Shown in pieces: positions 46,579 to 55,500 of a stretch of DNA of 64,000 nt. Source of the DNA: Tubulanus polymorphus. Lineage: Eukaryota > Nemertea > Palaeonemertea > Tubulaniformes > Tubulanidae. The position numbers were made by a program, and so were the translations under genes. How positions within the stretch are numbered: the first letter of the stretch is position 1; the number at the start of each line of letters is the position of its first letter. The stretch lies in the NCBI RefSeq assembly GCF_964204645.1, contig NC_134027.1, positions 4,514,485 through 4,578,484 of the forward strand, in the 5' to 3' direction. Below the pieces are notes generated by a model. That model had not been told where the DNA came from, did not search any database, and worked only from the letters and a program-made list of their open reading frames with translations.

Positions 46579-49500
46579 CTAGGAGACTATATCGCGTGAC
46601 TGAATCGCATCTCGGCATAGCGGACATTTATCTAACTGTATCGCACAGTCCATGCAAAACCCTCTGAAAAAAGAGATATTGATATATTAGTTAACTGCAA
46701 CAATGTACTGGAAGTATACAATAAACCTGTCTGTAACATTAAGTAAATTGTACTCTCAAGGCGAGATATTAAGCTAGAAAAGATGAGGGCCAATTACAAA
46801 GTCGGGGCTTAGATTCAAGACAAATCTAAGACCATCTTAGTTCTATAGCCAATCCAACCATTCAAGAACAGTCTTAAGATTTGAGACCACTTTTGGACAT
46901 GGAGTTAGGGCTATGCAACTGGGCCCTCACTAATATAGTACATGAATACAGTGAACCTCTGATATACTGCCCCCCCCCCCCCATATACCGCCACCCCGCC
47001 TACCGCCAGGTTTTCTTAGTGTATATCTCAATACAAATACAAAGTAAAACACCCCCGATATACCACCATACTCTCTATACCGCCAAAATCGTTCTGTGCC
47101 GATGTGGGCGGTAAATCGAGGGTTGACTGTATTCAAAATCTTCAATGCCAAGGTTTCCATCAATAGGCAATAAAAAACCTTCTCGTAATAAAAAAGATGA
47201 ATTTGTTCAATTCTGATTGATTTGGAGGTGTCTATATCAAATAACTTACAAATGTTGGCATGGCTGCAGTATCACAGAGGCTGTATTATCGAAACACAAT
47301 GTACATGAATCTTCTTTAACACTGACTGAACGAAGCATCGCCAACTTTTTGTGTCTGAAAAAATCACATAAAACCCAATCATTAAACAGTTTCTAGTCCA
47401 AAGTCAGTGTTGATCGCAATATACAGATAAAGAATTGAAATATGCAGTTCAGTAAACCTTGGCTAACTTGGACAAAATGGGATTGGCAAAATTGATTTGA
47501 GGTAATCCCAGTTCAAGTCGGATAGAAAATATGTTAGTATGTCAGAAAAATTATTTTGTTTTTGACCGAGTTAGTCGGAATCGGAGAAAATCGGAGAAAG
47601 GTGAGGTTTAGCACTTGGTTCTTCAAGTTGTACTTACTTGGGTAAAATCAAGCGTTCCTCATCGGATAGTTGGCCATAATCGTTGAAACATTTGAACGCA
47701 ATGTTTGTCGGAGGGAATTTAAACGGTAGCTGTCCAAAATTGAATTGGCATTGTTGGAATGACATGAAACTAGCAGCGGAAAAGAATCCTGACCTGAAAT
47801 ATTTTAAGCAAAACGCGATTTACAGATGTGAATATATGAAATCATCATTTCGAGAAAGAACTTTTTCTCATTAATCGACCAAAACTGTCACATCATTGAA
47901 ACCAGAAACATTGATTCTTTTAAGAGGACACTGAAATCTCATCTTTTTATACAGGGTAACAGAGAGACAGCACAGTGATTGCAAAGTGGAATATCACTAT
48001 AATATAAACACTTATCATTGTTTATTATTACAACTTTTACGTTTAGCTCGACTTCACTTACTTTGCATATTGAAACACGCTTTTAACAGGGGGGAGAGGG
48101 TCACCGTTCAAATAAAATGTAATCTCTTCATTATTCAGATTCAGGAGGGAACCAAGTATATCACCTACAAAATAAATCGTGTTACATTAAATGCAAGTAA
48201 ATGTTCATCTAAACACATAAAAATATTGTTTACTAGAATGTTACAACGATTCTTTCTGCCAGATTACCAGGTAGTTTGTTTTATGAACAGATATCTAATC
48301 ATCATGTTTTTTCAGTAAAGTAAATAGAGGTACTTGAGATGAGAATTACAGTTATATATATGAAGATTTAACAGTTATGTAAAGAGATATGCAAACAATT
48401 ATCAACGATCACTAGTTTATAAATAGTTTGATTACTAGTTTATAAATAGCGTGATTATGAAAGAAAGCCTACAGAGTACGAGTAAATCAGTGTAACAATT
48501 GACTGAAAAGAAAGTTTACGGGAGATTAGTGAATGATTTTTGTGAAAAACGACGGGTGTGTCAGTGAAGACGACGCTCACACGTCGTGAACTGGAAGTCC
48601 ATTACCGGTACGTCATTATTTTGAACACTATTCAACAGCTTGAAATTTTCACTTAAAACCTATCAAACTATTACATAACTACAATAAAAGCATTGAAATA
48701 ATCCTGCTATATAATCATCATCGTGTGATTAAATTCTCGAGTCACAAATATAAATTACTTATTTTTATTTTCTACATGATATATGAATGTAGCACATGCT
48801 ACACTCATTAGAAGGATACGAAGTATGAAATCAGAAAGACGTTCAAGTAAGCAAAATCTCAATCTTTTATCGACAATTCAGATCTACATGTACGTCGTAT
48901 AATCTACTTATCGGTAATCTATCACCGATTATCAGAACTCTTTAACATTCTCTTTCATGAATTCTTAAGATCCGTAATTCACTTTCTATGTGGGATTTTT
49001 CATTGACAGAAATGCAGACTGATGCACCAAAACGAAATAGTATCAGCAGTTTACTGGTACTAGATATGATTAACACACCTATGGATGAAGTTGCAGGTAA
49101 TATCAAACTTCTTTGATTTCAATCAATCCATTCTGAAGATATTTGCCGAGATTACATGAGCATTTTTGGCCTTTGCCAAATTTGGCCTAGAATAACTGTT
49201 CACAGAGGTGCCAAATGGGCCCCTATTAAATCTGGCCGGACCAAAAATGGCTCGGGCCTGATCCGGGCCAAATCGTCTCCATGTGATCGGTGCTTTTTTC
49301 AATGGTCTATTCAGTTAGTCATAATTGAAAGTCGGCTGTTTACGTTGATATGTGAAAATTGACTGAGATTTAATTCAAATTAAGCAGACGTGTACCATTC
49401 AACAACAAAGGCCTTTGTCACTGATATCAGTCTCGTATCCATAGTGCCAGTAATTGGGTTCTGTAACCAGTGTACACATTACGTTTTTTTTTCTGTGGTT

Positions 49501-52500: not shown

Positions 52501-55500
52501 GTTGAAAAACGATCATATCATTATTCTGCTATCAACTCTCAATTTCTATATTCGTCTATCATTACTGATTCTGTAACTATGCTAGAGTCATTTGGTGCCG
52601 TAAACACCATCATTCAAAACCCTATTGTAATCACTGCACAGTTTGATCAGAGAGTCTGCGTTAGTACATATAATTCCGAAATTATTGAGCGTAATTATCG
52701 ACGGCCGGATATTGACCGTTGTCACGTGAGTGATGGACAGACAGAATGTAGTGCGTTCGTGAGTGGACTCGAAAACACACGACAATCACCAATAATTCAT
52801 GGCACAGTTGAAATCCGGCGTATATAGACGATAAATAGCGCACAATAGTGTTTCGATACTAAGACACTGGATAAGATACAGAGTATTACAACAGGGAGAT
52901 GAGAACAGGATTTAAGAGTTCCCGATTTTCTGAAGGATTTTAGTTGTAGTTAGATTTTTTCAACTATTAAACAATATGTATGATGTTGAAGCGGAAAAAG
53001 CTAGAGCAACCATCATAGGTAAATTATTTATTATCACTGAAACCATAATTGAAGGTTAAATCAGGGAAATCGATAACATTTTTAGGTATTCTAATTCTTG
53101 CTGCTCTAAGGGGTTTTGACATTTGTGGTTAAGGACAGTAAAACCTCTTTACACTGAACACTTTTGAAATTTAGTTGGTTTCTAGAAAGAAGTGTTCATC
53201 ACGCGATCTGTTCACTATAGGAAGGTGTTCGCTAAGGGAGGTTTTACTATATTTGCTATAGGGATCTTTGTTTGAGGCACCTGATAGAAAATACAGATTG
53301 TCTTTCCTCAATTATCAATTGATACCTTATTACATGACATACTCAATAAGTGAAATGACTTCATTCAATGGGGGAAATTAGAACTATTTACCTCATAACA
53401 ATCGTGAAAAATGTCACTTTTTGTCCAAATATAAGTTACACAAAACAGACGCTTTAATAGGTTTTAATGGGAGTATTATGGGTCATCCTTTAGGATATAA
53501 TATCTAAACCAACAATGACTTATTCTATTGAACGAGTACACCTGCTGTCATTTATCAATCGAACGAGCATTTTCAGTCAAACAGCATATTATATACCGGT
53601 AGATTGCTTTAGATACCTACCGTACGCATTGCAAGAAATATTTGACATTTCAAAACTGATCGTGAGAAAAGAGTAAAATTTACTCAAACGGTCGCAGTAA
53701 ACACTCGATACAAGAGTTTGAAGATTGCGTTTCCATATTTTCAGGGAACTACATAATTATGGATGAGGCAGTGAAGGATAAGAACAGGGTGGATACGACT
53801 GTAGTGCAGGCGAAAAAGACCATCAAGCCATTTTTTAATCAAAAAGTGACGGGAGTTAAAAATTCTCAACACGAACGTCAATTGAAGAAACACAACAAAC
53901 TCATCGACCGTCAGAAAAATCGAAAAATGAGGCTGATTTCAGACGATACGAACAACCTGCGCCATGAATTCAAACTGATTCAACTGTCGAAACAGAAAAA
54001 TGACCTCGAAATTCGAAAACGCGACAATCCAGTCGAGGATTACTCGCTACACGAGGCCGGTATCGCGACTTCCGAACGATTTCTCAGAAACAGTGTACAA
54101 AGTTATTATTTGGATAAAACAAATTCGTTTAGACGTCGATCGATACCCGACCCGGAGCACGTGACGCCGCTGATCGCGAGAGCTCGAGAATCCCTGCGCA
54201 ATAAAGAGAGAATTCTACGTAAAAATGACCGCGATATTTTAACCGCCGAAGAGGAGCGAATGCGCTCGAATTCCCGGCGTAGCAGACGATCGCAGTCGCT
54301 GGTTGAAAGTTTGGGAGAATATCTGCACGAAAGCACAAGCACGAGCAGCTATGATAGTCCGTGCGGACCGGAATTAGGACAAATATTTACCAGGAATTAT
54401 ACGGAAGGTAATATATTGTCTACGGATATATATGAACTTAACGATCCCCAACTGAACATCAACAAATCGCATTCAAATCCGAATTTACTTTCGAATGAAC
54501 TCTACGGTCATGAAAGGAAATGTGTAACGTTCAACCTACAGGACAGAAACGAGTGCGTAAAGCCAAAAACTGCGTTCAACAGGACGAAACAACAAATAAG
54601 TCCGACATTACGCATTGCGAGCGGACAACGTTTCCTCAAACCATCGAATACCGATGATCTCGTAGATCCGGGTTTGTTGAATAAGTCCGGTGGCTATTCA
54701 CGACGGAAAAGTGTCGAATCTTCGATCAGCTCTTCGAATACGATGACTAAAGAACAGTTCGCGAGCGAACAAGATTCGTTAAAATTGAGAATCGATCGGT
54801 TTCTGTCGGGATTAAATGAAAAGTCGTCCGATGAAAATATGGACGAAAAACAAGCTGCGAATGTTACAGGAAATAAAGATATGAATGGCACACCGAAATA
54901 TCAGTCGTATTACAGTCAATCAAATGAGCAAGTCAAGGGAGATGAAATTCCATATACCACTACAGAAGCAACAATTCAAGCGATTAAAGCCCGACAAGCA
55001 AGCTTAGAAGTATCAAAACCTATCAGTACCGGTATAGGTGGCAATAACAGTGCCTTTGGGCAGACCAACAGCCCCCCAGAACAAAAAGTTAGTAGATGGC
55101 GTACGTTGGCCGAAAAGGTAACGGACAACAATGACGATACTCTGAGCAACTTCCCGCCGAAAAATCAAAACGCAATGAATTCACGAGAAAATGAAGCCCC
55201 TCAAAGAAGACGCAGTAGCGTTACGGGGATACCTCAACACTCGATGAATCGAGCTCGCCGACATACAGCGTCGTCAAAATTACGAAAAATAGTCGACGAT
55301 CTGATGAAACGGAAAACACGCTACGAGCTGAACGAACTGGAGGAGGTACGTCAACGTATGAAAGAGGAAGAAGAGCAGAAATCATTAACGGCAGAACCAG
55401 CAGAAAGATACGAGGTCGAGGAAGAATATTCTAGCTGAATAGAAACTATTTCCCCATTTACAGCATTCAGGGCACACGAAGTATAGTTATACAGTACTTA

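Follow-up and report, generated by a model that had tools for sequence, protein, structure and literature searches.

A domain-free protein-coding gene probably nested antisense in an RSPRY1 intron of Tubulanus polymorphus, with candidate alternative first exons

The 64,000-nucleotide stretch of Tubulanus polymorphus DNA analysed here, hereafter the window, includes on its minus strand a gene consistent in sequence with RSPRY1, one intron of which encloses a long open reading frame on the opposite strand. The main features of this arrangement are the following:

48165..55702, minus strand: RSPRY1 host intron, with SPRY at 55698-56069 on one flank and the SPRY continuation, then RING cysteines, on the other
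53745..55438, plus strand: large common coding exon with the stop codon; open frame, top acceptor, single copy
55555..55560, plus strand: poly(A) signal AATAAA, about 120 nt past the stop, with another at 55619

The SPRY domain match (E=3e-9) lies just upstream of the host intron in the sense of the minus strand, and the remaining part of SPRY together with the C3HC4 RING cysteines (CTLCF...CQHL and CMDC...CPLC), as read by eye, lie downstream of it. Thus, parts of the host SPRY domain are found on both flanks of the intron and on the minus strand, in agreement with the original prediction, which had placed the whole nested gene within positions 48165 to 55702. The stop codon at 55438 and the AATAAA at 55555 both precede the host exon, as opposite-strand nesting implies. 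The 5' end of the nested gene may lie further upstream.

The body of the nested gene is a single exon contained in an open frame of 590 codons (53666-55438), and encodes 563 amino acids from 53747 or 559 from an internal ATG at 53759. It is single-copy in its own 268-Mb genome, where neither paralogs nor processed copies, which could have revealed the true splicing, were found. Dispersed repeats do occur in the intron, at about 49145-49273, 51033-51200 and 53175-53255, and these overlap neither the gene body nor the mini-exons described below. An intact frame, a single copy, an exon led by an acceptor and repeats located elsewhere all speak for a coding gene over a repeat or a retrocopy. The opposite-strand gene proposed initially is therefore well supported, namely, by its open frame, its single copy, the best acceptor of the intron and its poly(A) signals, and we conclude that a real protein-coding gene is very probably nested antisense in the RSPRY1 intron.

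The acceptor at 53745, ATATTTTCAG/GG (here and below, a slash marks the splice point), has a score of 6.11, the highest among the 313 AGs of the intron. In control DNA, only 0.016 acceptors as good as this one are expected per 94-nt leader. This number bears directly on whether the gene could be intronless, with transcription starting near 53620, translation from the ATG at 53759 and a fortuitous acceptor at 53745. Such a gene would fit the 244 nt without an ATG upstream of 53759, the TATATA at 53590 and the good context of the ATG at 53759; however, the intron contains two other ATG-free gaps that are longer still, and the acceptor would have to be a coincidence of the frequency just given, so we regard it as improbable. 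Instead, judging from its sequence, the 5' end of the nested gene is likely to be spliced into 53745.

Four ATG-bearing mini-exons had been proposed upstream as alternative coding first exons of this gene, each ending at a GT donor in phase 1, open, and in frame with 53745. These properties, and the isoform lengths of 592, 579, 583 and 578 aa for 49012, 50712, 51957 and 52976, respectively, proved correct. Three further phase-1 candidates were absent from the original prediction. All seven are listed here:

48783..48846, plus strand: possible exon before 49010; donor CAA/GTAAGC, score 4.09, with a 163-nt intron to 49010
49012..49096, plus strand: candidate exon 1; donor CAG/GTAATA at 49097, score 2.96, with mixed codon evidence
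50244..50316, plus strand: ATG-to-donor candidate, probably chance, with a non-coding-like codon score
50535..50589, plus strand: ATG-to-donor candidate, probably chance, with a non-coding-like codon score
50712..50757, plus strand: candidate first coding exon 2; donor AAG/GTATGA at 50758, score 3.70; ATG context A-3/G+4, with training-dependent codon evidence
51957..52014, plus strand: candidate first exon 3, the weakest of the original four; donor CAG/GTTAGT at 52015, score 4.55, with negative codon log-odds in all five trainings
52976..53018, plus strand: candidate first coding exon 4, the best supported; donor TAG/GTAAAT at 53019, score 2.05; A at -3, with positive codon log-odds in all five trainings

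Donors were scored with generic metazoan weights taken from general knowledge, and nine donors inferred for kinase genes of this genome served as reference; the four original donors (2.05-4.55) fall among these nine (0.29-4.84).

To count the candidates, the intron was scanned for donors that scored at least as high as the weakest of the original four and had an ATG 40 nt or more before them, with the frame open between the two. Seven candidates were found in phase 1 (48783-48846, 48988/49012-49096, 50244-50316, 50535-50589, 50712-50757, 51957-52014 and 52976-53018), whereas phases 0 and 2 yielded one and two, respectively. The same scan was run on 80 stretches of the same size, taken from 20 places in this genome with genes included, with the following results. 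First, at least four candidates in a given phase occurred in 16% of the stretches, and thus four in one phase are not unlikely per se. Second, at least seven occurred in 3%. Third, a third-order Markov null gave a mean of 1.16 candidates and a probability of 2.5% for four or more. The excess of phase 1 (7:1:2) has a binomial P of 0.02 and was equally strong in one of 240 control tests, but this comparison is suggestive only, since it was devised once the counts were known. The argument that chance agreement of phase and open frame in all four would be unlikely was therefore overstated, given that seven candidates fit the same rule and that four or more are found in 16% of the controls.

Codon usage separates the candidates further. 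The log-odds of each mini-exon were computed with five training sets, including the genes of the window and the kinases alone. Only 52976 was coding-like under every training; 49012 and 50712 were positive with the window genes and negative with the kinases alone; and 48783, 50244 and 50535 were negative in all five. This pattern would be accommodated by a gene in which just one upstream exon, either coding or untranslated, is spliced to 53745 and the remaining mini-exons are chance ATG-to-GT stretches; such a gene would also fit the one or two phase-1 candidates that chance yields per stretch of equal size. Were that exon an untranslated leader, the ATG at 53759 offers a good context (A-3, G+4). 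The seven phase-1 candidates nevertheless exceed both expectation and controls, and we consider this simpler structure a serious possibility without preferring it.

The case of 49012 is complicated by its surroundings. An acceptor-like site, not noticed before, lies at 49010 with a score of 3.11, among the top six of the 313 AGs of the intron. Because 49012 is only 2 nt downstream of this site, it may belong to an internal exon, which would span 49010-49096 (87 nt, phase 1-1). Also overlooked was an in-frame ATG at 48988, upstream of 49012, which gives a product of 600 aa. An exon chain from 48783-48846 through 49010-49096 to 53745 would make use of the donor at 48847 (4.09) and the acceptor at 49010 (3.11) on the two sides of an intron of 163 nt, a normal size when compared with the inferred kinase introns of 80 to 1971 nt. 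Yet the codon score of 48783-48846 is non-coding-like, so that this exon, if used, may be a leader, or else be weakly biased; on this balance the chain is unlikely.

The mini-exon at 51957-52014 is peculiar in another way, as its 3' end ranks second among the acceptors of the intron (4.77). The donor score there is good as well (4.55), and TTCTCAGTTCCATCAG/GTTAGT at 52015 could be read as an AG/GT junction resembling a recursive splice site, instead of as the 3' limit of a first coding exon. Recursive splice sites generally belong to introns of far greater length than this one, and we give this possibility very little weight.

That all four original mini-exons are alternative first coding exons, exactly as first proposed, is favoured by their common frame, by donors within the normal range of this genome and by a purine at -3 of all four ATGs, for which the chance expectation is 6%. 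Against it stand the non-coding-like 51957, the acceptor-like site 2 nt upstream of 49012 together with the in-frame ATG at 48988, and the three further candidates that satisfy the same rule, which leave it quite improbable. What survives of the proposal is the shared frame and a modest excess of phase 1; the four are a subset of seven, of which 51957 does not look coding and 49012 is perhaps internal. At least two alternative coding first exons, on the evidence of sequence, are plausible, although somewhat less likely than not.

Signals resembling promoters were examined upstream of these exons, and one stretch stands out:

52600..52850, plus strand: stretch resembling a promoter, ahead of exon 4; CACGTG near 52723, CCAAT near 52788 and TATATA at 52821, all consensus matches only

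This stretch has a CpG observed/expected ratio of 1.36 and a GC content of 0.41, versus about 0.3-0.35 around it. CpG peaks precede 49012, 51957 and 52976, and are widely variable and uncalibrated. TATA boxes close to at least two of the four exons had been offered as support, but 37.5% of all ATGs in this DNA have a TATAWA 25-200 nt before them; two of four is what would be expected, and the presence of these boxes is uninformative, which is compatible with a single upstream exon. The GC skew of the intron is positive, unlike that of the rest of the window. As a sign of plus-strand transcription, GC skew was dropped, since in introns of dynein and kinase genes, whose orientation is known, it does not track the strand; AT skew does so only partly in these introns. 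Separately, the introns of a minus-strand dynein gene (G000:C6:22539316-22547865) have a GC skew of +0.17, unlike the other control introns.

The predicted protein matches no Pfam family at E values up to 10 and has no meaningful match in the PDB, which bears out the earlier impression that it contains no recognised domain. Relatives were also lacking in prokaryote and viral contig collections, as expected for an animal gene. An AlphaFold model from the single sequence contains confident helices at residues 41-93, 136-195 and 500-548, the rest being mostly of low confidence (mean pLDDT of 54), and the product is thus predicted to be a coiled coil plus disorder. Five RRx[ST] (PKA-type) sites were observed where shuffling predicts 0.75 (P 0.0006), which suggests regulation by basophilic, PKA-type kinases, while the single RVxF motif for PP1 docking (KCVTF) represents no excess over chance.

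The account that we favour, with some reserve, is that of a plus-strand gene in the minus-strand RSPRY1 intron whose body is the single exon 53745-55438. On its 5' side, one first exon or more would be joined by splicing to the strong acceptor at 53745. The best candidate for this role is 52976-53018, whose transcription may start from the promoter-like sequence at 52.6-52.85 kb. Either or both of two other phase-1 mini-exons, 50712 and 49012, may provide alternative short N-termini. Alternative promoters would then shift the place and time of expression, rather than the activity of the protein. The product probably acts inside the cell as a scaffold of about 560-600 aa, part coiled coil and part disordered, which could be regulated by PKA-type phosphorylation. 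A stronger version, in which a lineage-specific, hitherto unnamed coiled-coil phosphoprotein gene has four to seven phase-matched coding first exons with a separate promoter for every one of them, all within 5 kb, is improbable.

Genes nested in introns and genes with alternative first exons are each familiar, and the product here is an orphan protein. Opposite-strand nested intronic genes include 2mit in tim2 of Drosophila (PMC3786989) and nested gene pairs of C. elegans (PMC12274878). As in these, a complete coding gene sits in the intron of an opposite-strand host; unlike them, the host is RSPRY1, and the product is unrelated and known here from its sequence alone. The exons of the RSPRY1 host carry SPRY and RING parts, and no domain is common to RSPRY1 and the nested protein. 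Alternative coding first exons on a common body are a general class in animals, of which UGT1A and the clustered protocadherins are extreme arrays, with transcript evidence and with first exons related to each other. The present locus resembles this class in having several same-phase candidate first exons upstream of one acceptor, but differs from the UGT1A and protocadherin arrays in that its candidates are putative, 14-36 codons long, domain-free and mutually dissimilar. Duplication of that type among the mini-exons was not apparent, with no repeat linking them in 46000-58000 and peptides unrelated by eye.

If the first exons are real, the locus packs a compact choice of promoters and N-terminal diversity into a host intron, and would be useful for asking how convergent transcription of host and nested gene coexist. 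If they are not, it illustrates how easily ATG-to-donor mini-exons of the right phase arise in AT-rich introns, and warns against counting phase-matched mini-exons that neither RNA nor conservation supports. In both cases the protein itself, unnamed, about 560 aa long and with no known domain, deserves to be recorded.

Some additional observations concern the intron and the rest of the window. The dispersed repeat at 49145-49273 has dozens of copies of 74-89% identity on many contigs. An imperfect inverted repeat (51038-51183), with 56-nt arms that are 91% complementary, is related to sequences at other places in the genome, among them a tandem run close to 588.3-588.9 kb of contig C6. A search for RNA families and tRNAs found none. 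Three other minus-strand features were noted:

7839..8171, minus strand: MIR domain exon (E=6e-19), possibly of an inositol trisphosphate receptor gene
18147..19874, minus strand: NWD1-like gene, with a winged-helix domain and then a beta-propeller
60395..64000, minus strand: open frame of 1202 codons reaching the window edge, with no Pfam match above cut-off and a weak zinc-finger match
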